Assembly: GCA_963922205.1 (NCBI GenBank)
Contig: CAWUHX010000300.1
Coordinates: 343,024 to 407,023 of the forward strand
Origin: Romanomermis culicivorax
Taxonomy: Eukaryota > Nematoda > Enoplea > Mermithida > Mermithidae
Reading direction: 5' to 3'
DNA: 64,000 nt
The position numbers were made by a program, and so were the translations under genes. The notes under the pieces are model-generated. The model did no database searches and had not been told where the DNA came from. It saw only the letters and a program-made list of their open reading frames with translations. Shown here in pieces: positions 4,900 through 64,000 of the stretch (the first letter of the stretch is position 1; each line of letters begins with the position of its first letter).

Positions 4900-4946
<47 letters not shown>

Positions 4947-6957
4947 CTGAATAAATAAATGAATATACAAATAAATAAATAAATATACAAATAAATAAAT
5001 GCATAAATAAATAAATAAACAAATAAATACATAAATAACTACTGCTCACTTCTGGCGCCCAAGATGACGGCTTTAGGAAATTCGACGCCAAACTTAATTT
5101 CTGTATTGCACTTTTAGCTTTGTTCAGATCGAGCAATGTTTTACGCATCCGGCGGCTCAATCTAATGGGCACGTCGCTCATAAATTCGACACCACCGGCT
5201 ACCGCAATATCCGCGAATCCGTTAGCAATTAGACCCATGCCTGTAAAATTCGAGGGTCAGCTTCAGGACGGAAAAACAATACAAAAATTCCTAAAAGATG
5301 TATAGCGTTTGTACAATACAACCTTTAGTTTTCAGATTCAATGTTGTTTTATTACAAGAAAATAAAAAGACTCGTTTTAATCAGAAAGTCCGTTATACAG
5401 TCCCAGACATCAAAAATTCGAGAAGCCGTAAATTTTGCAAAAATCAAAAACCATTCCCATGTTTCATAATTCGAAGAACTGCAGCGACTAAAGTCATACT
5501 GATCTGAAACAGTTTCAAAACATGCATGAGGGGTAAGTTTTTAGGTCACTATCTGCTCGTAACAGGAGTAGGGGGCCATACCTGTAAGAGGTCCGACCGG
5601 TTGGGTACACGATAAAAAGCCATTTTTAAAGCGAGTAAATAGCCAACTTTTCAAACTTTTGGCGGAGGGGTCAGCAACTTCTTCAGCGTTTTGCGACCAA
5701 AAATGAACAAAACATGCCCGTGATCGACGAATTTTTATTTTAAAAGTGATATCAAACATTATTTCATGCGAAGCGCCGAAAATTTTTCGATTTTTCGACC
5801 AATTTTTGCTCTACCAAAGTCATTTTCAACCAAAAATGAATATTCTACGTCGATTTCCGGTCGCCTAGGGGAGGACGTTGCTGTCTACAAATTAAAGTTG
5901 AGGGAGAAGGTCGTCTACAACTGCATGTACGATTGAAAATTAAGGGGGCTCTACCTCAATCCTTCCCACCTATGGATATGGAGTTTACCCGACCAATGCC
6001 TCACCCTCCTGCAAATGACTTGAATGTAAAACTTATCGATCAAGCGCGATGAATTTTCGACAAATGATTAGCACTCTTCACCCTCCCCTCTTAAGGAGGC
6101 CGCACATCCACTCACTCAGCCAAGCCGATACGTGTATGAGTTACACGCTTACATGTTGTTATAGCTTGATTGGACGATATACAGGCCATCGTAACGGTAT
6201 GTGCGGGGACCGATTGCGGAATGCCGGCGCAAAGCGCCGCTTCGCGGGCTATATTGCTTGTTTTGACTTCTTGGATTACTGTTCCAATACAAATATAGCC
6301 AATTTTTTTCGGATCGATTTTAGTGCGTTGAATTAAGCCCCTGAAAGTATAAATTACTTATTCATGTGTGGGCGACCACTTCGAAATTCATCGGGATCAC
6401 CAGAATTCCGAAAAATTTAATGATATGGTCGTAAAATAACATTTCTTTTTTGATACCTCAACTTTGCCAGTTTGGAAAATTGTAAAAAGTTTGCAGAAGG
6501 TTATTTACATTAAGGGAACGCTTACTGTAGGGCTGATCTTTGCAAATCGTGAGGCATTAAATTTTTGTAATCGCTCCCGGATGTTAAAAACGGTGTCCTA
6601 ACGCCTTCAACTAAAACCACATTTTGACCTTTGAAAGCCGTTTGGCGCCCTGCAGGCAACAAAAATGAGCCTCACTCTGATTTTTATTATAAAAATCAGG
6701 GCCGTGCACAAGGGGGGAGGCGAGGGGGAGGGCCGCCACCCCATTGAGACAGCATGCACACAGTATATCCGCATAAAATCAACATTTTCTGGGGCTATTC
6801 AGTGAAAAAATCTGGTCCGCCCCCATGAAAAAATCCTGCGCACGGCCCTGATGATAATATAATGGTAACGTAGCTTACTTTGTGCGGCGACAGTTGCCAG
6901 CGATCGGGTAGCTGCGTTCAGTCGATAAACATTCTTAGTCCATGCAACGGATAACAT
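2532..6957 (-). CDS. HADHB: Mitochondrial trifunctional enzyme beta subunit (3-ketoacyl-CoA thiolase), ten exons
   Basis: Catalyses the last thiolytic step of long-chain fatty-acid beta-oxidation in mitochondria, in complex with the alpha subunit. Exons: 6957-6879, 6649-6526, 6340-6153, 5240-5050, 3915-3735, 3446-3322, 3271-3144, 3024-2937, 2873-2766, 2729-2532. All introns are GT-AG and all phases join, giving 469 aa, close to the usual family length. The first exon is a basic, hydroxylated leader without acidic residues, as expected of a mitochondrial targeting peptide. Catalytic residues are present: nucleophile Cys about 121 in [17 protein letters not shown], His about 424 in GHPFGATG and Cys about 454 in [21 protein letters not shown] and KAMDSDWF are hallmarks of the beta subunit rather than other thiolases. 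Introns 1, 3 and 4 carry transposon pieces or a microsatellite. The gene looks intact. Confidence 0.95.
4076..4690. mobile_element. hAT-like MITE in thiolase intron 4
   Basis: The ends are inverted (CACAGTGTTTTTTTTGTAC on the left; the right end reads back as CACTGTTTTATTTTTTTTTG). The flanks GTACGCAG (4068-4075) and GTATGCAG (4691-4698) match at 7 of 8 positions, the 8-bp duplication typical of hAT elements. The 615-bp interior repeats TTTGTAC/GTACAAA near both ends and has no transposase. Confidence 0.65.
4896..5036. repeat. (TAAA)n microsatellite in thiolase intron 4
   Basis: About 140 bp of AATA/TAAA tetranucleotide repeats with scattered substitutions, directly next to the donor site of exon 4 (5050). 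The ORFs that run through it are repeat shadows. Confidence 0.95.
6697..6850. mobile_element. hAT-like MITE filling thiolase intron 1
   Basis: A 154-bp element with inverted ends CAGGGCCGTGCACAAGG and TGCGCACGGCCCTG. Flanks ATAAAAAT and ATGATAAT are a diverged 8-bp duplication (6 of 8). It makes up about two thirds of the 229-bp intron 1. The same family recurs at 26,565-27,420, where the duplication is perfect. Confidence 0.75.
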
Positions 6958-15536: not shown

Positions 15537-18530
15537 TATGATGATGATGATGTTTACTATTCGAAGACAAAAGAAAGCAAATATAAAAAATCCATAGAGT
15601 ATTACGGTGAAACACCAAAAACATTTTTAAGACGGAACAAATGTAAAAAGAAAATACACAAGGATAGCGAGAAAAAAATCAAGAAATTAGACAAGGTTAA
15701 AAAAACAGAAATAAAACAGAACGAAAGTTTCAACGTAATGTAAGTTCGAAATGAACAAACTACTATACAAAGACAAGTTTGATTAGTCTAGGAAGCGCAG
15801 GTTACAAAGTGTAACGAACTAACGCGCTCCCACATGGAATTTGGAAAAATCGATTTTCATAATTTTGTTCTTGAAACATTGCAGACTGGAAGAATTGATA
15901 GCATTTGAAGGAAAGTTATTCCATATATTGATATACCTATTACAAAAATCATATAATCTCAAATTGGATTCAACTTTGCCAGTAATGAGCTTGAAATCAT
16001 GTTCGCGACGAGTGTTCTCATTAGAGTTTAGCATAAAGAAATCATTTTTGTCAATGCAAGTGTGATCTCTGATAATTTTGTACATTAAAGAAAGAGCAGC
16101 TAATAATCTGCGGGTTTCAAGTCGTTCTTGATGAAGAGCTTTTAGACGTTCTTCATAAGAAAGGCCAGAGTTTTTACCAAATAATCTCTTGGTAAACTTC
16201 CGTTGTACATTTTCGATCAGTAGAATTTTATTCATGTGAAAAGGATTCCACACAGTGGAGCAGTACTCAAGTATAGGTCAGACATATGTATTGAAGGCTT
16301 TAATTAGAACTGATTTATTTCTTGAAGTAAAAGCTTTCAAGATTAAGGAACTCCGTTGGTGAGCTCTGTTCACGATTGAGTTGATATGATTTTTTGAAGA
16401 TAAATTGTGAGAAATAAGCACACCGAGATCTTTGACAGTTTGCTCTTCATGGGGTAAATATCGGCTATCAAACTGATAACAATGTGTAGGATTAGAATAA
16501 CTAAGGTGGAGTACCTTACTTTTATCAGGAGAGATATCAAGCTGCCAGAGAGCAGACCAGGCAGAAATTCTATCAAGATCTGCTTGGAGAATATGATTAT
16601 TAGTAGAGGAGTTGAAAATTTTTACATCGTCAGCAAACAAAAACATATTGGACTTGATGTTGTCAGAAAGATCATTTATATACAACAGGAATAGTGTTGG
16701 TCCCAAGACGCTGCCTTGTGGAACACCACTTGTGACAGAAAAGAATTCAGAGAAATTAGTTTCTATATTAACTCGTTGGTAGCGTTTTAACAGAAAAGCA
16801 GAAATCCAACTTTTTAGGGAATCAGATATACCATAACCTGCTAGTTTAAGTAATAATTTAGAGTGAGATACAGAATCAAAGGCTTTTTGAAAATCTATGT
16901 AGACACAATCCAAAAAAATACCACAATCAATATTTCTTGTCCATTCATTTTTACATTTTAGAAGCTGTAGTTCACAAGATTTACTGGGCGAGAAACCATA
17001 TTGGTGTTGAGTTAGAAGAGAATTAGATTTCAGATAGCTGATCAGAGAATTGTTCACGATAGATTCCATAATTTTACAACTAACACAGCAGAGGGATATA
17101 GGCCTGTAATTAGAAGTAAGAGAGCGATCACCTTTCTTGAAGATTGGTATTAGATTTGCTTGATTCCAGAAACTAGGAATTGAAGAAGTTTGGAAGGAAA
17201 CTTCAAAAATACTGGTTAAAGGAATGGCTAGGTGGTGTGCCAGTTTTTTGTAGAAATATGCACATAAACCGTCAGGTCCAAGAGCATAGAAGGAATTCAT
17301 TTTTCCAATTGCAGTAGTGACTAGTTCAACAGAGAATCGCACAGATGTAAGTTTTGACTTGGTTCTTAAGGGAAAATCAGGAATAGAACAATCACCAATC
17401 TTGAAGACTGATAAGGAATAATCGTTGAATAATCCCCTGATTTCTTTTGGATCATGAACAACAGTATGGGCATCTTTTCGTATGGGGGGGGGGGGGGATT
17501 TGACTAATGGTGCTCAATTTAGAGTTTACAAAATTATAAAAGGATTTAGGGTTATTTTTGCGAATTATTTTCTCTTCAATAAAAGCCTGATGAGTAGAGA
17601 TTAATATCTTCAAGTGTAAAGAATGAGACTTGTATTTTAGTTTATCTGCAATAGTTCTAGATGATTTGTACCTTCTCCGTAGAGACAACTTTTTAGAGAA
17701 TGCCTTCTTAATATTTTTAGGATAGCATATTGTATTTGATCTGGGTTTAAAGAGAGGAGTATGTGCTATAATTATGGGTTTGAGAACATTGAGGAAGGTG
17801 CAGAACATATCATTAACATTTGTACATCTGGAGAAAATGTCTGGCCAAGATATCAGATTGAGTTTGTAGCCAATTTCTGCATAGTTGGCTTTACTAAAAT
17901 TCAACAACGGACTCTTTTGACATAGCTTCATTTTATCAGATAATAAAATTTTGAAATTAACACAGCAGTGATCACTAGTAGAGAAGGGAGCAGAAATATT
18001 AACATCAAAAACTGAGTTGTCACCAAAAACAAGATCAAGTACGCTATTTTCGTGTGTAGGTTCCAATACAAACTGATTCAAACCTAGGCTTGAGATGGAT
18101 TCGACAAAATTCATATGAATTCCTTCATTGGGGTGAGATAGGTCATACCTGTACTTGGGGGGTTGGGAAGGACCCCCCCATACCTGTAAGACCTCCGAAA
18201 AGTTGGGGGGGGGGGGGTAAATCCGAAATTTGGGGGGGGGGGGTAGAAAAAAGTCGAAATTTTTCTCAAAAAAAGCCAAAAAACATACACTTTTTTGCAA
18301 ATTTTTTTAATTTTTTCCAAACTGGGGGAGGGGTTGGGGGGAAATGATTTTGGGTACAGGGTTGGTCAAAAAAAAAATTGTTTTTTTGTTTTATGTTTTT
18401 GGCCTTTTTTGGGAAAAATTTCGACTTTTTTCTACCCCCCCCCCAACTGGTCGGAGGTATTACAGGTATGAGATAGATCTAACCAATTTAGCCTCGGTAA
18501 ATTATATTAAAGATTAAATTGGTATGTCTT
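15537..18530 (-). mobile_element. Nearly intact CR1/L2-like LINE retrotransposon
   Basis: Minus-strand order: endonuclease C-terminal part (about 18,530-17,500, with FSTSDHCCVNF), reverse transcriptase (17,450-16,278, with NYRPISLCC, YIDFQKAFDSV, SVTSGVPQGSVLGPTLF and catalytic FADD), then a C-terminal domain (16,253-15,819) and a 3' end finishing in a CAT/ATC trinucleotide run. Damage is light: a homopolymer frameshift at the G run near 17,487-17,501, one in-frame TGA between FNTYV and PILEYCSTVWN (about 16,276), truncation of the 5' end near 18,530, and a MITE at 18,144-18,470. So few lesions suggest recent activity of the family. Confidence 0.9.
18144..18470. mobile_element. CATACCTGTA-ended MITE inside the LINE
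   Basis: A 327-bp element with ends CATACCTGTAC and ATTACAGGTATG and internal G and C runs. Flanks AGATAGGT and AGATAGAT give an imperfect 8-bp duplication. Removing it restores an open LINE frame reading LPRLNWLDLSHPNEG. This defines the boundaries of a family scattered at 5.57, 11.3, 13.05, 15.1-15.3 and 21.2 kb. Confidence 0.8.
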
Positions 18531-38000: not shown

Positions 38001-40112
38001 GGATTTAAACTAAAATTGCAGAAAGAGCGCTTTTTGCGGGATCGCAGACGGGAAGCAATTTCACTCATCCCTGTCGCTTCCGTCCTGCTTTCAAAAAAGT
38101 CGTACCGTTGCCATGGGAGTGTCAGTGGTGTCGGGGAGAACCGGGTACAGGATTTGGCTCACACCCCAACTATAGACACGACAGAATCAGGAGCACTTTT
38201 GTATGCCTTACCCTCCCATTTGCAGATTGGTGCACAATGACTGTAACCAAGGCCCAGTTGCACTAAAGGGGTCTGAGCTCGAGCTCAAGGTAATCACGAA
38301 CAAAAAAGCGAATCGGTTTGATCTCAAGTTTGGTATAATTTGAATGTCATCAAGATTATAAGTTCAATGTCGAGATTATTACCAGCTCGAGCTGTCGGGT
38401 TGCAAACATTTTCGCATAATTTTCTTATCTCTAAAGCAAATAAATATAAAAATTTCTGCGATTCTCAAACTCGAACTTAAACCTCAGTATTAGTTAATCC
38501 TGGAGTGAGTGTTGTTTGTGCATTGGAAGAGAATAATTTGGACATTGCGATTAGCTCATACTCAGGATCATCAATTTAATCCCAACGTTGAGATTATCCT
38601 CATGTTGGATTAGTGCAACCAACCTCATGTTGGGTTAGTGCAACCAGCCTCAGGTTTCTTTATAGTTCTGAAAATGACTATAATATGCCTGCCTCACTAT
38701 TTTTCAGCTAGTATGAGAGGCAGCAGTTTTGAATTGGTCGGGAGTTAGGATGCTATTGGTTTACCATTTCTTTATATTTGAAATCATGTGCATATAATTT
38801 TCATGTAGAAAAATTTTACTGTAGTTGATGCCAGGGAAAGGACAAAGTGCTCGATGCTGCAGAATATACTTTTTCACAGACATGGAAAATTTTTTTGAGA
38901 AAGAATGAAAATCCAATATAAAGAAAGTGGATTTTTTCCGACTTTAACCCAAGTTCTCAAAAATCTAGTCTACTTCTTTTTCTAGCATAGCAACTATCGA
39001 AGCAAGTATATTCTTTTTTCTGCCCCATCGGGGAATTTTATAATAAACTAGTCTAATATCAATAATTTTCCGTACTTGGTCCACAAAGCATTGCCACGTT
39101 TTGACATCGTCACTTTTGGGGTACGTCGCCCAAATTGCGGCCGTAGGTGCAGTGGCGTTCAATGTGTAAGGACCTTGCCTAATTCCTTTGTCAAAAGCAT
39201 CAAGTTGGCCTTAATTTGACAGAATTGACTAAAAATCAGAATAATGGAAGGAAATTACGGAACTGGTACGTTTTTATAGTCAAGGTTTAGACGAAAATGG
39301 ATACGATTCTTCGTAATAGCGCTTCACACTTCGAGAGTGAGTGACCTGCCAAGCATTTCATTGACGATTGTCGACCTTTTATTTTACAAGTTTCTCCAGA
39401 AAAGTTCTTTAGTCTATTTATATACTCAGTTTTTGAATCTGGCTGATAAATATCTTCTTACAATAATAAACTATAAAAATCGCCCATGAACCCAAAAACG
39501 CCCCGACATATTGTCCGGCCATGTAGGCGGGCACATGAAGCCACTTGATCCGCCCCAGAACCGCAAAACAAAACGTTATCGCCGGGTTAATATGTCCGCC
39601 TGGAAAATAATATCTGTGAAATTTAGATTTCGGTGCATTCTCCGTATACCAGATACGCCACCACAAACGCAAAAGGCGATAGCAATACCACAACCCCAAC
39701 CAAGATTCATCGCCACTACATTAAACCGTATATTTGAATAGTTCAGGACGGCTTGGGCGACGCAGCCGACACCGAAGACCTGAAGTGAAGATAATGAAAA
39801 ATGCGTAGAATTAGAAATAAACAAAACAGAACCAAAAATAAAAACCGGGCAGAAAATTGAAGGAAAAGAACAAAGCAAAACTAAACAAAATAAAAGAAAG
39901 AGCAGAAAAGATATCAAAAATGATCGAAAAAATGATGTATGGAACAGATGAGAATGAGTTATCACTCGGAAACTCACCACTAGTAAAAATGTTCCTAGCA
40001 TTTCGGACATGAAGAATCTCATATGATCATTTTTGAACCTCAATTTTTCCTTGATCGCACTTCGCCAGGTATAAACTATTTCGGGTGTATCCAGCTTCTT
40101 TTGTCGTAGCAT
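35011..40112 (-). CDS. Aquaglyceroporin (MIP family channel), five exons found
   Basis: Membrane channel for water and small solutes such as glycerol. Exons: 40,112-39,978; 39,779-39,650; 39,599-39,462; 39,209-39,076; 35,253-35,011 (or spliced at 35,037). GT-AG junctions and phases agree. Seen: the first NPA box in [16 protein letters not shown]-like [14 protein letters not shown], the second box in [16 protein letters not shown]; the Asp after NPAR is the usual mark of glycerol-permeable members. The read-through product is about 259 aa and ends RLLYLLCP after GWGTGVF, so transmembrane helix 6 is missing. Either an unseen exon follows a donor at 35,036 (GTTACT) or the channel is truncated. 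The start follows a TTTCATTTAG acceptor-like site, so an upstream exon is possible. Intron 4 (35,254-39,075) is filled with repeats. Confidence 0.85.
35521..37160 (+). mobile_element. Minisatellite-bearing element, copy 1 (aquaporin intron)
   Basis: Begins ATAGGTGGCGCGATAGCGTC, continues with a roughly 240-bp unique segment (35,640-35,880) and ends in a tandem array (36,459-37,150). Copy 2 at 62,000-63,225 has the same parts in reverse order and orientation. No inverted partner of the start was found at the other end, so the class is unknown. Confidence 0.65.
36459..37150. repeat. ~97-bp minisatellite, about seven units
   Basis: Units start TTTTCGAC at 36,461, 36,559, 36,656, 36,751 and so on (spacing 95-98 bp). 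Each has GGGGAATTCAATGGA, a TCACTT...ACAAAAA segment, ATCCCGGGTGTAAACAAGCG and TTTTTGTGATTTTT. ORFs here, with recurring IIPGV and IFVIF, are repeat shadows. Confidence 0.9.
37327..39053. mobile_element. Long-inverted-repeat element in aquaporin intron
   Basis: About 200 bp at 37,327-37,525 (starting ACTAGTTTATTA) reappear inverted at 38,850-39,053. The interior (about 1.3 kb) has a 74-codon unrecognised ORF (38,016-38,240) and a nested GGTTGCACTAA-ended repeat (about 38,254-38,647). The right edge is only 22 bp from the splice donor of aquaporin exon 4. Confidence 0.8.
38254..38647. repeat. GTTGCACTAA-ended repeat
   Basis: AGTTGCACTAAAGG at the left and GGATTAGTGCAACC (twice) at the right form inverted ends around CTCGAGCTC-type and GAGATTAT blocks. 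It is similar to 41,243-42,000. Confidence 0.5.
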
Positions 40113-40226
40113 TGCTAAATGAAAATAAGATAATCAAAAGTAAAATCCCAATATATAAATTGCTCACTCGCGAACAACTTATAATTGTTCGACGAACTTG
40201 ATTTCGAAAATGTGACAATACAGTGT

Positions 40227-42920: not shown

Positions 42921-44749
42921 GATACAATTTCTAAGAGATTCGACCTTCTGTTCCATTGACCAATGATAGGATGAAAATTAATCATATTGGAAAATAAGAC
43001 ATTTACTCACTGAGTATCGCGACAGCATTCACATAAAAGTCAGAATTTGAATAGCTACAATACCCCAAAATAAGGAATTTTTACATTTTTTGACAGTCGT
43101 CCGTCTTTATACGTATCTCGAAATTTCACAGTCCAGAAAAGACGCGACTCAGCCAAATGTAGCCGAATGTCATTTGGCTACGAACAAATGCAGATGACCA
43201 TGCTCGACATACAAGTATGAATCAGTCCCCTACTTTACACTTTTTAGGCTATTCTAAAGTGTCAAAACAGAAGTCAAAATGAACTGAAAAAATGCTTTGG
43301 GAACTTTTTTGGGCGCCTTCACATATAGGATACCGCAAAATTTTGTTGTTGATTTCTGCAGCCCCTAATGTCTGACATATTCTGTTAAAATTTCGATCAG
43401 ATTTGTGTACCGTTTTGGGAGCTGTAGGTTCTCAAAGTTGATAGAAAAATGCTGATTAATTCCACTGAATATGCCATCAATGAGGTGCAGGAAGAATTGA
43501 AAGCGTTCAGATTAGACGAATGAAAAGAAAAGATGTTAGTCGAATCACTGGTAAAATTTCATCAATCGGTTTAGAATGGTTGTGCAGCAGGGTGTCTCTG
43601 GAGAGACGCAACAAAAATTCCCCTCTCCAGGAATTAATTTGAAAGATATCGAAGCTGCGAGTTCAATTTTAAGAAATAAATGCCGGCTGTCTGGTTCCGG
43701 GCTATGTTATAACCTGTGAGAAAGTGCTCTACAGTTGGAGGCACCCTATTTCGCACAACGTGATGTCAGCCGGAAGAAAATAAACCAAATGATAGTAGAT
43801 TGCAGTGCCTTTCCAATGCACCGAAGGGCATACCGAATATCTCCTTCCGTTTTCAAGTAAATGAATTTCAAATAATCACTCGATTTCTGAAATTTATTGA
43901 AAATTTTTGAATTTTCGATTTTTCATTCGAGGCATTTCGTTCAGCAACCATCAAACACAGATCAACGAAAATTCATCAGGACTCGAATCCACATTTTTTC
44001 TTCTTATGTATTAGGTAAAGAAGCATCCTGTACTCTCAGAACTTAATTGGTTGGGCATTTATCCAGATTCAAAAAATATTCGAATGACAGTTCAGTGTAT
44101 GAAAATCTCTACAGCTGCCAAAATCGTGCGCGTTGATATTATGTTACTTTCACAACTACTGTAGGAATGTATAAACTAAAGAATAAAAAAATAAAATTTC
44201 ACGGCATCATAGGTGAAATCGCTCAGGGGTGCCCCTAGACTTCTTCAAAGTTGTGAAGCTCCCCAAACGGTACAAAAACCTGGAGGAACATTTTCCAATA
44301 CGATAAGATGCATGAGCTATAAAATAAGGAAATAAATTCTGTGGCATCGATGGGAAGGTGCTTGGGAATGCTCATGAACAGAGTTTTGCCAATTTTGACT
44401 TCTGATTTCCGGTACTTAAAATTCTCTTAAAGGGTGTAACACGCAATAATTTACTGTAAATGTTAACCAAACGGTAGCCTGTCCTCTTCTGTATAAAAGG
44501 AATATTCATTTATCGAATAGGATCACTCCAATCCTGGAATATCGCTTGATAGCAAGACCACGGAAACATGCAAAAAAGATTATCAATATTCAAACTTTGG
44601 CATATTACAGCCGTGTGAATTTTCATTTTTAAGCGAAAACAATAATACTATGAAACTCAGCGCACAAAACTGCACAAAGTGTTCCGTTTTGAGATATGAT
44701 TAATTTTCATCTTATTATATGAAAATTCGAACCACTCAGAAAAAGTGTC
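42921..44749. mobile_element. TTAA-type foldback element, copy 1
   Basis: The left end GATACAATTTCTAAGAGATT and the right end, read inward GACACTTTTTCTGAGTGG, are diverged inverted ends of the same family as 55,491-57,643 and 58,383-61,517. Arms pair over several hundred bp (for example ATTAATCATA near 42,980 with TATGATTAAT near 44,697). CTAA follows the right end where TTAA is expected. The interior is colinear with copy 2 and has no intact gene. Confidence 0.7.
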
Positions 44750-44983
44750 CTAAGAATCTAAATAGTAGGTGTTCAGTTTATCGTGTTCAACATCCTTTTC
44801 CAGCTACGCGCATTTAATGGACAGCCTTCAAAAATCTTCGAGATAAGAATCGAATATCACATATCAGGGCGAGCAAAATTCCTGTCCTGATGGCCGAAAT
44901 CACAGGCAGGAAATGAGGTTTCAAGCTTTCAATGGAAGAGCATTATTCAAATGTCTGTTTGGTAGAACGAATAATTGTATCTA

Positions 44984-45228
44984 TAGTCTGTTTTTCTTGA
45001 AATGCTTTCAAATAATGAGAGTGGAAAGCAAGTAGTATTTCAGATTTTTGCGATTTTCTGATAAACAAAATGTCATGTAGGGCTGGAAATTTGTGAGCAT
45101 ACTGACCTAACTTTTAGCGATTTTTCGAGTGAAAAAATTTACATTAAGAACTTTATGTAAACGATTTTGACAACAGTACTGATTTGTATCACTTTTGTAT
45201 CTGGAAGCATTTTATAAAAAACAGACTA
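44984..45228. mobile_element. 245-bp TA-target MITE (TAGTCTG family)
   Basis: Ends TAGTCTGTTTTTCTTGAAA and TTATAAAAAACAGACTA are inverted and flanked by TA on both sides, as for Tc1/mariner-type MITEs. Other copies: 46,377-46,506, 60,311-60,554, 63,540-63,786 and one cut by the window end at 63,869. Confidence 0.8.
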
Positions 45229-45348
45229 TAACTCTTTTGTTAACACCTTATAATTGCGAACATAACTCATTGTCAACTACAGTAATCGTTAAAAAATTTT
45301 CGATCGTCATTCTGAAAAATTAGATTGCTGGAGGAAGAATATGCTTAC

Positions 45349-48090: not shown

Positions 48091-51000
48091 CTGTAGACAG
48101 GTGTTGACCATGCACCGTTAGCCAGCATTTTATTTCCAACTGCTGCAGTCAATCTGAGAAAAAAGACTGTCGCGTTCGCAAATTGTTTACAAGGCGTAGT
48201 CATGTTCAAAGTTCTTGTTTGTAAGTTTTAAAAAATTCAAAATCACGAATCCGCTATCGCCCATTTTGTTGTTTACGTTATATACTCGTGTCCAAAAAGT
48301 TAGTTTATTCTTATCTTAGACACTGAATTTTATCCAGTTTCACCAAAGAGACTAAGCTCCAGCTGAGCTGCAGCTTAAGCCCTATATTTTATACCATTGC
48401 CGTTAAGGTTTCTCAATATGTTTTTTGTGTATACGTAAGCTGCATTGAACTATACCAGACCACGGTATCACATGCAGATTTGAGCTATAACTTAACCTGC
48501 AGCTCAGCGGGAGCCTGAAGCCGGCTCACGTACAAACCAATGGCCAAAAATTTATCATGACTGTAGATTTGGGAACCCTATTCGGTGTGTCAAGTTAATG
48601 TTAAAGTAAAACTGAGGGCAACAGAGCAAAAGGAGGCGGGGCAAAGCAGCAAAAAGAAAAATTTATGTTGTATTGTTTACATTTTCGATCTCCGTTCAGT
48701 TTTTTAACCGTCAAAGAATTCTTTTCTATAAGTTTTATTTCATGGCTATTGGATATTTGCGGTCACAACGTTCATAGAACCAGCCATATGTATAGGGCGT
48801 TCTTGGGCACGGACGATAAAATAGATATTTCTATTGTTGTAAGATGCAAACAGTACGAAATTCCACAAATGTAATTTTAGCGCCAGTTAGTTAATAATAA
48901 TTGCTCTTGTGCGTTTTATTAAAGTGTTATGGGCAGACGTTGCTTTTGTTACAAATTATGTGCAGTGTAATGTCGTCTATTATGCATGAGCATACACAGA
49001 GTTGGAGGACCTGTTGTAGTCATTCAAGTGTATAAAATAGTGTGATAATGGAATTATGAGTCGTTTTAAGGTGCGAAGAATTGAATCAACTACAAGTATT
49101 ACCTCAAAATGGCGTGGAGTTTAATAATTATTGAACAAAATTGAGGACCGTTAAACTTGACTCGCCCAGTGCTGCTAAAACTTTAAGAACGGCCTTGCCT
49201 ACAGAATACGAGAAGGGCCACTTGAAAAAACGTAACCACTTGAAAAATTTGTTACCCCCTGGAAAAATTTGTTGCTACTTGAGAGAAATCGTTACCTCCG
49301 AACGTGATGCACAACATTTTTTCAAGATGCATCACGAAAATTTCAAGATGCTTCGCAAAAATTTCGAGATACATCGCAAAAAATCAAGACGTAAGAGTTT
49401 TTCGATGTTCGACGTTATATTCAAGTGCGTCACAATTTTTTCAAGTATAGCACATTTTTTTCAAGACTTTGAAAAGAATTAGGATGTCATCCTGAAAAAA
49501 GACCAAGATAGTATCTTGAAAAAAATCAAAATGATTTTTTGAAAAAAATCAAGATCCCATCTTGAAGAAAATCAAGATGTGCTGCACATCTAAGGATGAG
49601 AATTTCTGAAATTAGCCAACCAATGGCGTTGCTTCGCCCCTATGTTTATATATACGAGAACCCTTCAAAGTGTATTAAGGTCACGGTTTACTGGCGGAGG
49701 GCGGCCTTGATTATGGGGGAGGTTATTTTGCACGGGGAATCCGACGGACATATTGATTTATCATAAAAATTTATATTTCTCGAGATTTAAAAAAAGAAAC
49801 AACAAAGATGCTTGTTTTTCACCCTAAATGCAGTAATTGTGGAAAATTACCAACATTTTGGACTTCATCGGCTGTTCTAGGACCATTTCCTTCCTACTCA
49901 GAAACCCGACGAACAGACGCAAATTTGAATATTTAACCGAAATTACTGGATTTTGGGTGAAAAACAAGTTTTTCTAAAAGATCGCTGAAAATAAACATTT
50001 TTATGAAAAATGAATATGTCCATCGGATTCCCCGTGCAAAATAATCAACCTCCCCACACTCTGCCGCCCCCTTAATAACCAAGGGCGCCCTCCGCCAGCA
50101 AACCGTGACCTCATAAATCCACTTTGATTGGTTCTCGTATATATAAACGTAGGAGGCGAAACAACGCCTTCGATTGGTCAGATTGGTCTTTGATCAGAAA
50201 TTCTCATCCTTTGATATGCCACTCATCTTGATTTTTTTTCAAGATGGGATATTGATTTTTTTCAACATGCCATCTTGATTTTTTCAAAATGACATTTTGA
50301 TTTTTTCGGATGGCATCTTGATTTTTTTCAAGATTACGTTAAAAAAATTCGATGCACTTGAAAAAATTGCGATATTTGAAAAGAAAGTCGAATATCGGAA
50401 AACTCTTAGATATTAATGGTAACGATTATTTTTAAGTTGCGACAAATTTTTTCAAATGGTAACAAATTTTTTCAAGTGGTAATAATTTCTTTTCACGTGG
50501 CGCATCTCGTATTTCGTACCTGTCTATGTACGTGGAACATGTACAACTCTTCACGTCTCTTAGACTCCATTTCACGCCCCTTTTTATTCCAATATTACCG
50601 ACATGGTAGAATTCTCAAAAATGTGACATCGCTCTTGCTCACAGTCTTTTTGAATTGAATGCGTCTTGGGAAGAATGTGATTAGCGTGACTGTTCCATTG
50701 AATTCAGGGGAATCAAGCTCATCAATTTCGCTCTCGGGCCGACACCCAGCGATCAGAGGAACGTTTATCTACTAGATTTTAGTATGGTCAGGCGGTTCAA
50801 AATTCCCCCCGACAATAAAGTTAGACCGGCCAGGAGATACGCCGTATACAGAGGTTATCTGTTTCCATTCAGTTTTTTACAAGATGTCTCTAAATGAAAA
50901 AGTGACAAAAACAAGTGTTGTCTTAAAAATCATTTATGTAAAGCTTTTGCTGTACATTTTACAACCCAAAAATTTTCAAGGGATCTCACAAATTTCCGCC

Positions 51001-54245: not shown

Positions 54246-54755
54246 CGCAAACTAACTGATCATAGCAGTAAAGAATTATGCAGTCGCCATGAAAGCTCAG
54301 ATAGCAGAGCCAAATGATATGCTAATTTTTATTTTCCAGATTCGAATTTAGCTGCTGCTGTTTATGAGGAGATATCTTGTTTCGTGGAGAAGGATGGTAA
54401 AAAGTGGATTATTAAAAAGGATGATATCTCGTCATTTACACCAATCAGTTTTGGAAACGTCTTTTCCTTTATTGACGATGCTTAATGAAAAAGAGAGGGG
54501 GTTTTTTGATGCTAAACTTATCATCAATCGCATTAATCATCCCATCCGGCATATCAGTCTGCTTTCATAAGACATAATTCACATTCCTCGATACGAAATT
54601 TCGAAAAATCTCGGAATTAAGTCGGATTTGTTTCAAGAGATTGCGGGTGAATCTTTACTGACCACAGATTTAGTCAAGAGTAAAATAGATTCAGCAACTA
54701 AACTGACGCCTCCTGCTACTTTTGGCAAGGCCATTTAGGATAAAATGAAAGATTT

Positions 54756-55490
54756 TTGCCAAAAAATATCTTCCATGATGTCATTCAGAAGCTGAGCAGA
54801 TCGCAGCTTTTCATGGTTGCTAAGAAAATTGGTGGTATGAGACCAGTTATTAATTTGAAACAGCTCAGTAATTGCATGCATTTTAGAATGGAAGGCATAT
54901 ATGTGCTGAAAGATTTAATGCAGCTGCACGATTTTTTGGTGAAGATTGATTTAAAAGATACATGCTTTCTAGTCCCAGTTTGCTGTAGTGATCGAAAATT
55001 TCTTTGTTTTAAATGCAGGCAAAAAAATTATCAATTTACTTGTATGCTTTTTGGTTTATGCTCAGCACCACGGCTTTTTACAAAAATTTTCAAGCCTGTC
55101 ATAAGCAGGTTGTGTCAGCTGGGCATTCGCCTCATCACCTATTTAGATGACATCTTAATTTTAAATGCTACTTATGAAGGTTTGAAACATGACGTTGAAT
55201 GAGTCATGTTCATGATAACGAATCTCCTCGGCTTTGTTATAAATTTTGAAAAATATGAATTGGTGCCTCCAAAGAAAATAGCTTTTTTAGGGCTAATTAT
55301 ATGCACCAGAACGATGACACTACTCATTCCCGATGAAAAACTGAAAATATTTTGGATTTGTGTCAAAATTTACTATCAAAAAAAGAAGTAGCACTGTATG
55401 ACATAGCCTGTCTATTGGGAAAGTTCGTGTCAGTTAGCCAAGCTCTTTTTAGAGGGAACCTTTTCACCAGAGAAATTCAACGTTGCTTAA
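54756..55490 (+). pseudogene. DIRS-type reverse transcriptase fragment
   Basis: A 148-codon open stretch, then two frame changes. Motifs in order: GGMRPVINLKQL, FRMEGIYVLKDLMQ, VKIDLKDTCF, YQFTCMLFGLCSAPRLFTKI, LITYLDDILIL (catalytic Asp-Asp), then after a stop LGFVINFEKYELVPPKKIAF and MTLLIPDEKLK. FKMEGI...LKDL and FTKILKP-type motifs are typical of DIRS rather than Ty3 reverse transcriptases. It is interrupted at TREIQRCL by the foldback at 55,491. Confidence 0.9.
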
Positions 55491-57643
55491 GACACGATTT
55501 CTGAGAGATTCTACCTTCTGCTCCATTGACCTATGATAAGTTGAAAATTAATAATATCTGAAAAAGAGATATTTTGAGTAGTTTGCTGAGTATCGTGACA
55601 GCATTCATTCTGCGCAAAAATCAAAATTCACATAGCTACAGTACTCCAAAGCTTGGAATTTTTACATTTTTTGGCATTTTTCAGTCTGTACACGTGTTTC
55701 GAAATATCAGAGCTCAGAAAAGACGTGACTCTGAAGCTAAATGTTGAATGCATGCAGAAGACCATTCTCTATATGCCGGTATGAAGAACACTTTCTAATC
55801 TCTTACTTCACACTTTTTATTCCATTTTAAAGTGTCAAAACCGATGTCAAAATAAACCGAAAAAGTCCTTTGGGGCCTATTTTGGGCACGTTCCCATAGG
55901 ATGCCGCAGAATTTTTTTCTTGATTTCTGTAGCCACTAATGTCTGACATATTGTGTTAAAATTTCAATCAAATTAATGTACCATTTTGGGAGCTGTAGGT
56001 GTCTGCACATTCTGAAAGTTGATACAAAAATGCTGATTAACACCACTAAATATGTTATCAACGAGATGCAGGAAAAATTCAAGACGTTCAGATTAGACGA
56101 GTAAAAATAAAAGATGTGAATCGAATCACTCGAAAAATTTCATCGATCAGTTTACAATGGTTGCGCAACAGGATGCCTCAGAAGAGATGCATCAAAAAGT
56201 TCTCTTTTCAGTAATTTGACCGGAAGAAAATTGAAGCTGAGAGTTGAACGTTACAAAATAAATGTCGGCTGTCTGACTATGACCTATGTTATAAGCTGTG
56301 CGAAAGTGCTCTATAGTTGAAGGAATCCTGTTTCACACCACGTGATATTGGCCAAACGAAAATAGAGCAAAGGATAGTAGATCGCAGCGCCCTTCCAACG
56401 AAGCAAAGTGTATCTGAAAAACTCTTGCCGTTTTTCTGTAAATGGATTTGAAACAATCGCTCAATTTCTGAAATTTAATGAAAGTTTTCGAACTTTTCGA
56501 TTTTTCATTTGAAGCAATTCGTTTAGAAACCATCAGATTAAGATCAATAAAAATTTTCCAGGACTTCAAGTCACATTTTTCCTCATAATATATTGGGTTA
56601 GGACGAATCTTGTGTTCCCAGAATTCATTGATGGGACATTTATCCAGATTCAAAAACGCATTTGAATGACAGTGCAGTGTATGCAAATGTCTACAGCTGC
56701 CAAAACGGCACATGATGATGAGATGTTACTTTCGCAGCTACTGTAAGAATGTATGAACTAAAGAATAAAAAGATAAGGCCCCTATTCACAATCACGTGTT
56801 AAGTCAACACGGTGTTAGGACTTAACACCGTGTCAGCCTAACACGCCGCTAACACGCGATTGTGAATACGGGTCTAAAATTCTGCAGCATCGTAAGTGAA
56901 GGAGCTCGGGAGTGCCTCTAACCAGGAGTTTTCTTTATTTTTGCTTCTAATTTTTGACTGTTCAATCTTTCTTGCAGAGTGTAAAATGTTTGCTTGTGAA
57001 ACAATTATACATCAAACTATAGCCTGTTATTTTATAATTCTACAGTATAGGTAATGAATATATCACAAGGGGTAAACAAGGGCCACCTGGCAAATAGAAT
57101 GATTTCTATGAAATTTTCATAAGTTTGCCTTCTTCAGAGCAGTGCAGCTCCCAAGATGGTACAAAAATTTTGATGAAAATTTAACCAATGCAGTAAAAAT
57201 AGATGAGGTACAATATAAGAAAATTAAATTCTGCGGCTTCCGATTGGAAGGTGCCTGGGAGTGACCATGAACAAAATTTTTTCAATTTCGACGGCTCATT
57301 TTTGACACTTTAAACTTTATGAAAAAGTGTAATATGCAATTATTTGCTCTAAATACTACATCAGAAGAGAGCTTATTCTCTCCTCTGTAAAATAGATATT
57401 TATTCATCAAATAAGATCAATCCGATCTTGAAATATGGCTTAGCTAGCAAGACCACTGAAAAATGCCAAAAAATCATCAATTTTCAAACTTTGGCATATT
57501 TTAGCGGCGCGAATTTTCGTTTACAAGCAAAACGGATGGTACGATGGAACTCAGCGCACGAAACTACTCAAAATATATGATTTTGAGGTATGATTAATTT
57601 TCAACTTATCATAGGGAAAGTAGAATCTCTCAGAAATCGTGTC
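55491..57643. mobile_element. TTAA-type foldback element, copy 2, in DIRS RT
   Basis: Ends GACACGATTTCTGAGAGATT and AATCTCTCAGAAATCGTGTC are exact inverted repeats. TTAA precedes the left end (55,487-55,490). AATTAC follows the right end, as if TTAATTAC had lost TT. Joining the flanks restores DIRS coding sequence (QRCL to NYKLEK). The arms are several hundred bp. The interior is colinear with 42,921-44,749 and contains an unrecognised minus-strand ORF (56,713-56,333, 126 aa) and a small nested MITE (56,777-56,874). Confidence 0.85.
56777..56874. mobile_element. 98-bp Harbinger-type MITE, near-perfect palindrome
   Basis: Ends GGCCCCTATTCACAATC and GATTGTGAATACGGGTC with a TAA duplication (56,774-56,776 and 56,875-56,877). 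The centre (GTGTTA/TAACAC) also pairs. The paralogous foldback at 44.18 kb has the uninterrupted site with a single TAA. Confidence 0.88.
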
Positions 57644-58378: not shown

Positions 58379-59552
58379 TTAAGACACAATTTCTCTAAGA
58401 CTCGACCAAGGTTGTGATGAGTAAAAAATTAATCATACCTCAAAAAGACATATTTTGTACAGTCTTTTGTGCTGAACAACAAGCCAGTATTCGTTTTGTC
58501 TAAAAATCAAAATTCGTTTTGTAACATCAATCCAAAGGTTCAAATTTTTTGAAATTTTCGAAATTTTAGGTCACAATCATTGAAGGTAAGTAATCAGGTA
58601 TGCAATGTCGATCAATAAAACTTTGTCAGTGTGTGTAACAATGTTTAGTGTATATGCTTGACACATATAAATATATGTAGCATCAAGATCATGGTTTACA
58701 CAACACTTTAAATTACAATTTTCAGCAATTATCAATAACTGAAATTCACACATTTTTGTACCCTGTGAAGTAAAATAATAAGTGTCATTAATTAAACTCC
58801 ACTATGCTATGGCTAGACCCCTTGGGCACATACCCACAAAGTTTTATCAAAATAAAAAAACCATTAAGTGTGCCACAGTGAAACAAGTTGAAGCCATTTT
58901 TGAATCAAATTATAAAATGTTCTATTCAAAATGCAATGTCATCCACCCAAAATTCTAATAAGCCAACTAAAACTTTTGTGCATTGCAGGCTGACATCTTG
59001 CAGGCTGACAGGTTTGGTTAATATATCATTCTCCCTTACATGGGAAATTATACAAAGTTAAACACATTCTTGATATTATTGAAAAAACTTCAGGTGCAAA
59101 TTGTTGTTCCATTTAGTCGGAATATTATTAATTCTAGTTCAAATCGACTGTATTGCAGCCACAGTATGTGGCTACATACCAACCAACTTGCATCAAAGTA
59201 TTGACACCCATTGTATATTAAAAAACTAGAAAAGTCATGCTCTTTTGGTTAACTATAACATGAAAGATTGTTCAAATTTTCAACAAAAACTGACAAACTC
59301 TGGATGATTTTCAGACCATAAGAGCTCAACATAAAATCACTTGAATCCAATAGAAATATTTGCTCTAAACCAGATGACATTTTTAAAGTGTCTGATCTAC
59401 ATTGTACTAATTATTGAAACAATTATTCAAAACAAACTGTTTTACGTAGTTCACTTTCATGTTCTAAATGAGGATCAAACATTGCTGGATCCTCGTCTAG
59501 CATTCTCCTTCATGTTGAACACCACATTCTCCTTCCAGGTTGCTACTATAGC

Positions 59553-60020
59553 ATGTATAGTAGAACACTAGAAAGTGTTCGATTGACCCGTTGCTTGCCT
59601 GAAATTCAAGAAGCTCTTCAATTGTTTTATGAAGCTGACTCATTTGATATTATGGAAAATGGTTGGGCTTTAAAGAAGCATAAGATATGCCATTCCTTAA
59701 CAGAAAAAAACAAGATCAATATTTGCTGGGAAAATACAATAGTGGGATTGTATATCATCAAAAATTCAATGCTGAAGTTGTCACTGGAGAAATGAGGAAG
59801 AACCCATCTTTTGTCAGATCTGATTTCTTCACACCACAACAAATTACTGGATTCTGGGCTAGGGAAGCCAGCTGACCAGCAGGAAGAACTTACTACATTC
59901 TATAGTAGCAATCTGGAAGGAGAATGTGATTTTGAAGATGAAGAAGAACCCTACGAGGTTCCAGTGATGTTTGATCCTCATTTAGAATATGAAAGTGAAC
60001 TACTTAAAATATTGTTTTGA
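59553..60020 (+). pseudogene. Protein-coding remnant in foldback loop
   Basis: Three overlapping frames read one protein: IMENGWALKKHK, then a frameshift, then FLNRKKQDQYLLGKYNSG, EMRKNPSFV, SDFFTPQQITGFW, then another shift to an acidic tail (GECDFEDEEEPYEVP) and a stop at about 60,020. The pattern GWALKK ... EMR ... F.T.QQI..F resembles, from memory, uncharacterised animal proteins seen near transposons. It is not a piggyBac catalytic domain that I recognise. It could be a captured host gene or the end of an unknown transposase. Confidence 0.5.
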
Positions 60021-60310
60021 ACAATTGTTTCAATAATTAGTATGTAAATCTGACACTTTAAAAATGTCACCTGGTTTAGAGCAAATATTTCTGTCCCATT
60101 CAAGTGGATTTTATGTTGAGCTCTTATGATCTAAAAATGATCCAGAATTTGTCAGTTTTTGTTTAATATTTGAACAATCTTTCATCTCACAGTTAATCAA
60201 AAGAACATGGTTTTTCCAGTTTTTTAATATATGAGGAGTGTCCATACTTTGATGCAAGTTGGCTGGTATGTCGTCACATACTGTGGCTGCAATGTAGTCG
60301 ATTTGAACTA

Positions 60311-60554
60311 TAGTTTGTTTTTTATAAAGTGCTTCTAAGTTGGAAAAAGACAAAAATCAACCATGCAGTCAAAATCGCGTACACAAGGGTTTCACGGTAT
60401 GATTTTTCACTCTAAAAATTGCTAAGATTTATTGAATAAGTCCACAAGTTTTCAATCTCTCGTGATGAATGGTTCAGTTGAAAATTGTAAAAATCCAAAA
60501 TAGTACTTGCTTTCCACTTTTATAATTTAGAAGCATTTCAAGAAAAACAAACTA
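60311..60554. mobile_element. 244-bp TAGTCTG-family MITE in right foldback arm
   Basis: Ends TAGTTTGTTTTTTATAAAG and TTTCAAGAAAAACAAACTA, with TA on both sides. The left arm has the empty site: the complement of 59,123-59,150 reads GATTTGAACTAGAATTAATA with a single TA. Confidence 0.93.
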
Positions 60555-60824
60555 TAGAATTGATAATATTTCGACTAAATGGAACAACAATTTGCACCTG
60601 AAGTTTTTTCAACAATACCAAGAATGCATTTAAGTTTGTATAATTTCCCATGTAAGGCATAATGATATTATGACCAAACCTGACTGCCTGCAAGATGTCA
60701 GCCTGCAATGCATAAAAGTTTTAGTTGGATTATTAAAATTTTGGGTGAATGACTGCATCTTTAAACAAAAAATTTTATAATTTAATTCAAAAATGGCTTC
60801 CTTTTTGTTTTACTGTGGCACACT

Positions 60825-61015
60825 AAAGCCTGTAGCCAGAAATTTTTTCGGAGGGGCACCCTTTTTTTCACTCAATTTACCGTAAAATTGGCATATCTGA
60901 CTTGACTTTCTTTTTTCTAACTTGACCTGAAACAAAAACCAAAGGCACCTTTGCCTTTTTTCAACACTAACATTTGGGGGGCATGGCCCCCCAACCCCCC
61001 CTGCCTACAGGCCTG
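60825..61015. mobile_element. 191-bp hAT-like MITE in right foldback arm
   Basis: The ends are AAAGCCTGTAGCCAG and CTGCCTACAGGCCTG. Flanks GGCACACT (60,817-60,824) and GGCACGCT (61,016-61,023) are a 7-of-8 duplication. The left arm (about 58,860-58,880) keeps the empty site, with one GGCACACT on its complement. Confidence 0.88.
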
Positions 61016-61521
61016 GGCACGCTCAATGGTTTTTTTATTTTGATAAAACTTTGTGGTAATGTGGCCAAGGAGTCCAGCCATAGCATAGTGGAGTTTAATC
61101 AACTCATTATTTGACTTTACAGGATACAAAAATGTGTGAATTTGAGTCATTGATAATTGCTGAAAATTGTAATTTAAAGTGTAGTGTAAACCAGGATTTT
61201 GATGCTACATATATTTATATGCGTCATGCATATACACTAAACATTGTTAAATGCACTGACAAAGTTTTGTTGATTGACATTGCATACCTGATTAATTATA
61301 GCCCTTCAATGATTGTGACCTAAAATTTCGAAAATTGCAAAAAATTTGAGTTTTTGGATTGATGTTACAAAACGAATTTTGATTTTTAGATCAAACCACT
61401 ACTAGCGTGTTGTTCAGCACAAAAAACTGTACAAAATATGTCTTTTTGAGATATGATTAATTTTTTACTTATCGCACTTAACTACAGGCCTCGGTTGATT
61501 CTTACAGAAATTGTGTCTTAA

Positions 61522-61999
61522 ATGTTCCAGTTTGGCCGACACAGCCATGGTGGCCACTACTCTTATCAATGACAGTAGATCGTTCCATACTTCTGCCTCA
61601 AGTATTCAAGATCGTTTTGGATCCTGTGGGAAATTATCATCCCCTGAAAATGAACGAAACTTTGCAGCTCTCAGCCTGGAGTATCAGGCGTGCCTGGGCT
61701 AAACTTGAAGTTCCAGCAGAAGCGATCATGTTCATGCTACAATCGTGGTCGAAAGGAACTCAGAAGCACTACAGCTAGGCCCTTGCAAAGTGGAGTAGCT
61801 GGTGTTGTAAACAAAATGTTAATTCCGTTCAACCAGCTGTTTCAGATTTGATCAGTTACCTTCTCTCTATGCACAAAGCAGGGCTCAAATACAATACTAT
61901 AGCTAGTGCAAAATCTGCTATTGTTACTTTTTTGTCTGAAGTGGGATGTAATTTGTTCAAGGAATTATTTGATTACTTGGTTTCTAAAGGGAATTTTTA
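61522..61999 (+). pseudogene. DIRS tyrosine recombinase, N-terminal part
   Basis: Readable with shifts: SLADTAMVATTLINDS, then SIRRAWAKLEVPAEAI, LQSWSKGTQKHYS, LAKWSSWC, VSDLISYLLSMHKAGLKYNT and ASAKSAIVTFL. This matches the helical core-binding domain of DIRS-type recombinases. The catalytic Arg...His-x-x-Arg...Tyr half is absent because the element is broken near 62,000. Confidence 0.75.
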
Positions 62000-63225: not shown

Positions 63226-63539
63226 GATGATCCTAATTATACTAACTTCGTTTTTAATGCTTATGTAAGCTTTAAACATATCCTACAAGTTAAGGCTCAT
63301 TGATACTGAAGAATATGAGATTTTGCAAGGCCTTTAGGCCGATGTGAAATAATTATTCTTAAGTATCAAGGAGACTTAACTTGATCCCGCCCGCCTCTCC
63401 CTGCGTGCAAATACTTTTAATTTAAAATTTGAGGCAATTATCGGCGTTTCCCTAGGAATTTTCCTACAAGTCGCTGTTCAGGACGATTTTGACTATGTGA
63501 AATCGATTTTCTTTTTTTTTCTCGATAATCTAATAATTA

Positions 63540-63786
63540 CAGTCTGTTTTTTATAAAATGCTTCCAAATAGAAAAGTGACACAAATCGGCACTGTCGCCT
63601 AAATCGTTTACATATGGCTTTTACCATAAAAATTTTTCATTGGAAAAATTGTTAAAGGTGAGATCAGTATGTTCAGAAATTGCCATAACTGTATAATATA
63701 TTATTTATGAAAAAATCGAGAAAATATGAAATGATACTTGCTTTCCACTTTCATTATTTGGAAGCATTTCGAGAAAAACAGGACTA
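63540..63786. mobile_element. TAGTCTG-family MITE
   Basis: Starts CAGTCTGTTTTTTATAAAAT after TA and ends TTTCGAGAAAAACAGGACTA. The right TA has decayed to TC. About 247 bp, the usual family length. Confidence 0.65.
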
Positions 63787-63868
63787 TCGTTTTTGATTGT
63801 CATGATATCTTTCATGCGACGTTATCGTTTCAATATCTTAAGAAAAATGAATAGAAAGTACCTAGCTA

Positions 63869-64000
63869 TAGTCTGTTTTTCTTGAAATGCTTCGAAATAA
63901 TGTAAGTGGAAAGCAAGTAGTATTTCAGATTTTCACGATTTGCTGATAGACAATATATCATGTAGGACTGGAAATTTGTGAGCATACTGACCTAACCTTT
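63869..64000. mobile_element. TAGTCTG-family MITE cut by window end
   Basis: TAGTCTGTTTTTCTTGAAATG follows TA at 63,867-63,868. The next 130 bp closely match the copy at 44,984-45,228, including the tract around GGAAATTTGTGAGCATACTG. Confidence 0.8.

Follow-up and report, generated by a model that had tools for sequence, protein, structure and literature searches.

A palindromic, probably non-autonomous derivative of a TTAA-inserting DNA transposon family in Romanomermis culicivorax

Introduction

In piggyBac elements, targeting of TTAA is linked with footprint-free excision (PMC7351741), and the combination of long inverted ends with a TTAA target has a precedent in a piggyBac with 528-bp ends (PMC10813416). 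Inverted arms can also be extended with sequence of the gene that they enclose: in Galileo of Drosophila willistoni the end of the transposase frame is recruited into both arms, over 69 bp in a near-complete copy and over more than 500 bp in copy 147, as described in PMC4168063. The element considered here, c3, occupies positions 58383-61517 (3135 bp) of a stretch of 64,000 nucleotides from the nematode Romanomermis culicivorax (contig CAWUHX010000300.1, positions 343,024 to 407,023), which is called the window in this text. The original prediction for this window described a giant foldback transposon with piggyBac-like target choice and a protein-coding loop, present in three copies. Comparison with the whole genome indicates that c3 is most probably a dead, non-autonomous and palindromic derivative of a TTAA-inserting DNA transposon family, whose usual members have a different design.

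Structure of c3 and its insertion as one unit

c3 begins with GACACAATTTC at 58383, and the complement of this sequence ends at 61517. These ends, and the intact TTAA on both sides (58379..58382 and 61518..61521), are exactly as predicted, and the TTAA copies are read as a target-site duplication. The left arm (58383..59557, plus strand from the tip inwards, about 1.17 kb) was delimited by self-alignment, and its innermost part, at 59431-59557, matches the 3’ end of the family gene in inverted orientation. The middle of the element (59558..59893, plus strand, 336 bp) is a decayed and frameshifted 3’ part of the same gene, in which the pieces ESVRLTRCLPEIQEALQLFYEADSFDIMENGWALKKHKI.. and TGEMRKNPSFVRSDFFTPQQITGFWAREAS can be read. 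It continues without interruption into the end of the gene (59894..60020, plus strand, ..LEGECDFEDEEEPYEVPVMFDPHLEYESELLKILF followed by the stop), as in ordinary members of the family. The right arm (59894..61517, minus strand, with its tip at 61517) is inverted relative to the left one. The two arms are 89.4% identical across 1162 aligned columns, with a Kimura two-parameter distance of 0.115, and their local alignment score is 757 versus a maximum of 34 in 50 random stretches of the window, which bears out the inverted arms of about 1 kb. The loop is coding only by descent: its sequence matches the family gene, but frameshifts break it, and it is a remnant of the element’s own gene.

The right arm is the longer one through two nested inserts of 246 and 199 aligned columns, whose boundaries are approximate. 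The larger (60309..60556) has TATAGTTTGTTTTT-type inverted ends and a TA target, and its empty site is visible in the left arm as AATTCTAGTTC. The smaller (60823..61021) has the ends CCTGTAG/CTACAGG and a possible 8-bp duplication, AGYGTGCC; by eye it appears hAT-like, which is our assumption. Neither insert occurs in the left arm or in the sister copy of c3 at locus L009 (see below), so both arrived later. Relatives of the 246-bp insert are found in the window at 44980-45230 and 63535-63780, with an extra piece at 63866-63941 and TATAGTCTGTTTTT-type inverted ends; this repeat presumably is a small non-autonomous mariner-type element.

c3 interrupts a decayed retroelement, which we take to be DIRS-like. 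Its reverse transcriptase frame lies at 54744..55202 on the plus strand (RVT_1, E 4.9e-10), and its broken continuation lies at 61522..61998 on the same strand (end approximate), where a SAM-like integrase N-domain is matched weakly, below the Pfam cut-off (E 0.0023). When c3 and one TTAA are removed, the joint is crossed by an open frame, ..RATVTL-NVPVWPTQPWWPLLL.., which also supports the left TTAA as part of the duplication. As the retroelement frame closes over a single TTAA, c3 entered this site as one unit. Within c3 there is no further TTAA-tip match, with up to 3 mismatches allowed.

Ordinary and palindromic members of the family

A search of the source genome (359 Mb in 595 contigs) with the left arm yielded 1209 first-look candidates; scoring was applied to 40 of them, and 43 matches were reported. 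Twenty loci, chosen by their similarity to c3, were fetched with an arm query reaching 104 bp beyond the shared 914 bp. Ordinary members are 3629-4061 bp long in the 11 loci measured between both ends (L011, L014-L016, L019, L021-L025 and L028), and each reads, from one tip to the other, as an arm of about 0.9 kb, a single gene with its end, and the second arm. Eight of the 20 loci fall outside this measurement (L010, L012, L013, L017, L018, L020, L026 and L027); one of these, L010, with ends at 762 and 3083, does not contain the loop part and thus represents a shorter deletion form. The end of the gene is joined to an arm in all 20 loci and is present on one side only in 19 of them.

In the larger set L009-L058, 49 of 50 loci match the loop, and 3 of these 49 carry the gene end on both sides. 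Five places fetched twice were dropped by their coordinates (L030, L032, L051, L057 and L058), which leaves 44 distinct loci with a loop match, and the palindromic form is found in two of them, the window copy c3 and L009; as loci were picked by similarity to c3, the true share of palindromes may differ and is probably lower. The predicted giant-foldback architecture thus suits c3 itself, which has long inverted arms around a short middle and moved as a unit, but not the family, whose ordinary form is a transposon of 3.6-4.1 kb with inverted ends of about 0.9 kb. The foldback is a rarer rearrangement that has added a duplicate of the gene’s 3’ end to the opposite arm.

L009 is a palindrome of 2671 bp on a different contig, flanked by TTAA on the left and TTGA on the right. 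Its identity to c3 is 92.4% across 2652 columns, and its left junction coincides with that of c3 to within 6 bp, so the rearrangement is common to two places. Nothing beside c3 matches the flanks of L009 (5285 and 745 bp), of which only scattered pieces find matches in the window, at 19.7, 29.2 and 36 kb. Segmental duplication of the window locus is therefore ruled out as the source of the second palindrome. The divergence between the arms of c3 (10.6%) is higher than that between c3 and L009 (7.6%), which is consistent with the rearrangement having come first.

Target site of the family

A 20-base end pattern with 18 fixed bases has 162 matches in the genome and none when reversed as a control. 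TTAA stands directly in front of the pattern in 110 of the 162 matches and in none of the control, so the genome-wide count agrees with the target choice that was predicted. Among the 20 fetched loci, 35 ends were located when up to 3 mismatches were allowed, and TTAA is present at 24 of them. Eight of the other 11 ends are one base off TTAA (ATAA twice, TCAA, TTAT, TTGA, TAAA, TTAC and TTCA), and the remaining three (GTAT, CCAA and CTCT) differ from it by more than one base. Two ordinary members, L021 (C9) and L023 (C326), have the same mirror-image flanks, aaagcaTTAA..TTAAtgcttt; because these flanks are shared, the two insertions are not independent and lie within copies of one repeat or of a duplicated segment.

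The family gene

The N-terminal part of the family protein was read from different copies as CDNCEQLKKTLKDI, followed by LQLDWAMKFLP, RSDNAGCFHGSP and DFSEPQFGKGPCDRIAALIKRQ, and the C-terminal part reads GWALKKHKI...FWAREAS...DPHLEYESELLKTDCFE. Between DFSEPQFGKGPCDRIAALIKRQ and the C-terminal part there is a stretch, FNCPEEGCIKAFVLHRNLLQHLILGNHK, which is C2H2-like by eye. Gene pieces are abundant: of 424 candidates 150 were scored, and 150 matches were reported, at 50-100% identity. The fetched gene copies carry stops. Relatives about 50% identical have long frames free of stops, 692 amino acids twice (C4:947211-947927 and C4:991677-992393), 562 amino acids (C16:654437-655153) and 482 amino acids (C461:111447-112163).

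The candidate catalytic spacing is D-82-D-40-D. The first D is present in 4 of the 5 rows that reach it, the second in 10 of 18 and the third in 16 of 19. The search for relatives with a DDD protein between the same ends, suggested in the original prediction, did turn up members with a candidate D..D..D protein. The second residue is V in 8 of 18 copies, and all eight have a TGA two codons earlier, a codon that reads CGA in two unbroken rows. Recurrence at a CpG could thus account for the stop on its own but far less readily for the shared V, and the D-to-V change found with TGA in eight copies implies that broken copies multiplied and needed an enzyme from elsewhere.

A transposase encoded by the family gene is, on balance, the interpretation we prefer. 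The Pfam matches of the decayed gene pieces include no known transposase family; 6 of the 27 rows match DUF7869 weakly, the best of them at E 9.1e-5 and 22.6 bits (the cut-off is 26), and the other weak names, at E 0.0076 or worse, are chance-like. One search of PDB gave no match, and the other gave three at E 0.2 to 2.2, none of them meaningful. In viral_contigs, alignment gave 33 stretches, none of which was confirmed, and a motif search gave none. The literature search returned nothing on DUF7869 and nothing on the motifs of the family protein as text. Among 19 copies there is no codon-position bias (3414, 2865 and 3034 differences at positions 1, 2 and 3), contrary to what is expected of a recently coding gene.

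Other copies and other features of the window

The original prediction counted c1 and c2 as further copies of the foldback. They are indeed related to c3, but their inverted parts are short, they belong to another subfamily, and neither has TTAA on both sides. c2 (55491..57643) lies in the same retroelement as c3, between a left TTAA and a right AATT, and c1 (42921..44749), a relative of c2 with degraded ends, is flanked by AAAT and CTAA. The similarity between c1 and c2 is 75-77%, and together they make up a subfamily distinct from c3; what they share with c3 is confined to stretches of 50-153 bp close to the ends that are 70-84% alike. The inverted parts of c2 consist of terminal arms (about 195 bp, 73%) and a single inner block (111 bp, 76%), and those of c1 of just two blocks of 25-26 bp. 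The family gene has no match in c1 or c2, as all four tblastn matches in the window (E up to 0.05) fall within 59426-60008. When c2 is excised so that its left TTAA is kept and two bases on the right are removed, the retroelement frame is open; TTAA was therefore probably the target of c2 as well, with TT lost from the right copy; a 2-bp duplication is the less likely alternative for this element. In the middle of c2, at 56776-56875, a block of about 100 bp forms an inverted repeat with itself (68% over 111 columns, ..AACACGGTGTTAGGACTTAACACCGTG.. by eye) and is perhaps a nested insert.

A further hairpin-like structure lies at 49205-50513, with arms at 49205-49296 and 50418-50513 that are 80% alike and several nested inverted blocks inside; no target duplication was identified for it. 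The minus strand holds a reverse transcriptase of a LINE-like (long interspersed nuclear element) element at 16278-17513 (RVT_1, E 1.8e-35). Frames of the same strand resemble, by eye, mitochondrial thiolase (trifunctional protein beta) exons at 2532-5256 and aquaglyceroporin exons at 39576-40133.

Origin of the palindrome and competing explanations

The arm tips bear on how the palindrome may have arisen. In ordinary copies, the arms on the side of the gene end mostly have the tip ..TCTCTAAGACT and the opposite arms mostly have ..TCTGTAAGAAT; the two types are swapped in L014, and one type is on both sides in L021 and L023, as expected from recombination or conversion between inverted arms. 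Judged by their letters, both palindromes, c3 and L009, carry a gene-end-side tip on the left and a tip of the opposite type on the right. Over 60 bp, the left tip of c3 is 98.3% identical to the best gene-end-side arm, and the right tip is 95.0% identical to the best opposite arm. A mirror duplication in one step was dropped, because in a comparison by segments the arms of c3 are not each other’s closest relatives along their full length, and this comparison favours duplication plus recombination.

The ancestor would have been an ordinary TTAA-inserting DNA transposon, with inverted ends of about 0.9 kb around one gene. Repair or recombination between these ends may have placed a second, reversed copy of the last ~130 bp of the gene, with the adjoining end region, on the other side, which would have given longer arms around a 336-bp gene remnant, with exchange between the arms. 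The rearranged form would then have moved at least once more as a unit, presumably by cut and paste and with an enzyme supplied in trans from elsewhere, and c3 would later have taken up the two smaller insertions in its right arm. As a whole, this account of derivation, arm rearrangement, re-mobilisation and decay is very likely the best explanation of c3.

Several results weigh against parts of it. The hybrid tips require recombination besides duplication. The origin of the tips is separated only by best matches and tip letters, and on average the right tip of c3 is about as similar to gene-end-side arms (0.861) as to opposite arms (0.851). Arm identity is also low in ordinary copies (80.9-94.5%), so that the order of events is poorly datable from it. 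Exact TTAA is missing in front of 52 of the 162 end matches. As to the gene, the same TGA occurs in two copies that keep the D (L012 and L039), so the stop alone may be recurrent; both structure models of the family protein are poor (mean predicted local distance difference test scores of 34.6 and 40.6) and provide no evidence of a fold; and the stop-free relatives are represented here by their frames, so that a matching helper among them is at most putative.

That two separate insertions in opposite orientation merely mimic one palindrome, the possibility on which the original prediction would have fallen, could be argued from arms that are only 89% alike; the single TTAA pair, the single restored frame and the lack of an internal TTAA-tip match contradict it, and the same junction at L009, between unrelated flanks, refutes it, so we give it practically no weight. 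The gene could also be of host origin instead of the element’s own transposase gene. The 150 gene-piece matches, and a gene end that is joined to the arm in 20 of 20 loci, rule out a capture confined to c3. If the whole family captured it long ago, a reading for which the C2H2-like stretch FNCPEEGCIKAFVLHRNLLQHLILGNHK and the lack of a known transposase domain may speak, these results would be expected too; we regard this reading as improbable.

The transposase reading, which we retain, leaves the affiliation of the family to be weighed, and we place it in none of Kolobok, piggyBac and Sola3 and treat it as unassigned. Sola3, a group of Sola that likewise uses TTAA, is one possible home, and the combination of TTAA with a DDD-like protein of unassigned family would suit it; we regard membership as possible, although rather unlikely. 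The Repbase paper (PMC4455052) confirms the name of this group only. Membership in the Kolobok superfamily, as a form with long inverted ends, deserves similar, limited credence. The TTAA target and RR..YY ends (here GA..TC) are the signature given for Kolobok in PMC9587614, and Kolobok-type miniature inverted-repeat transposable elements are likewise described as using TTAA (PMC6004289), but the C/DxxH motif between the second D and the last acidic residue was seen in none of the 19 rows when judged from the candidate residues (the second D is covered by 18 of them, and one begins beyond it), and for this reason the family is not filed as Kolobok. A piggyBac-type foldback, as originally suggested, is very unlikely: TTAA fits, and one piggyBac with 528-bp ends is on record, whereas the ends of c3 are GACAC and not CCC, the rule given in PMC10813416, and Pfam finds no piggyBac domain in the gene pieces, which come from decayed copies. 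A more speculative proposal, which we hold as tentative and doubtful, is that the gene encodes the transposase of an undescribed TTAA-targeting eukaryotic superfamily, independent of piggyBac and Kolobok; the DD40D core of this enzyme would be a distant relative of DUF7869, with a C2H2-like finger after it. The gene would be intact in some relatives, and the arms would recombine to yield palindromes that are still mobile.

Comparison with known systems

The c3 palindrome, present at two unrelated sites, shows that arm extension through the end of the element’s own gene, as described for Galileo in PMC4168063, also occurs in a TTAA-target family. If the family gene is the transposase, TTAA targeting may have a further independent origin, and stop-free candidate copies exist.

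Kolobok elements, as characterized in PMC9587614 and PMC6004289, are like the c3 family in their TTAA duplication and RR..YY ends, and they differ from it in the C/DxxH motif (absent at the candidate residues in all 19 rows here); the gene of the c3 family matches none of the known transposase families. piggyBac elements share the TTAA target and, in some cases, long inverted ends, but have CCC ends (PMC10813416), and the c3 family has no piggyBac match in Pfam. Tetris and other foldback elements resemble c3 in their palindromic arms, variable middle and non-autonomous nature, and are distinguished by duplications of 8-10 bp, tandem repeats in the arms and a noncoding middle, according to PMC4079207. 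Galileo, a member of the P superfamily in Drosophila, is described in PMC4168063 with duplications of 7-8 bp, a P-type transposase and arms that are 99% alike in its near-complete copy, versus 80.9-94.5% in ordinary copies here. The same source gives it long inverted ends of variable length, no functional copies and other elements inserted in the arms, as in the c3 family, and the last piece of its transposase frame is recruited into both arms, as is the end of the family gene in c3.
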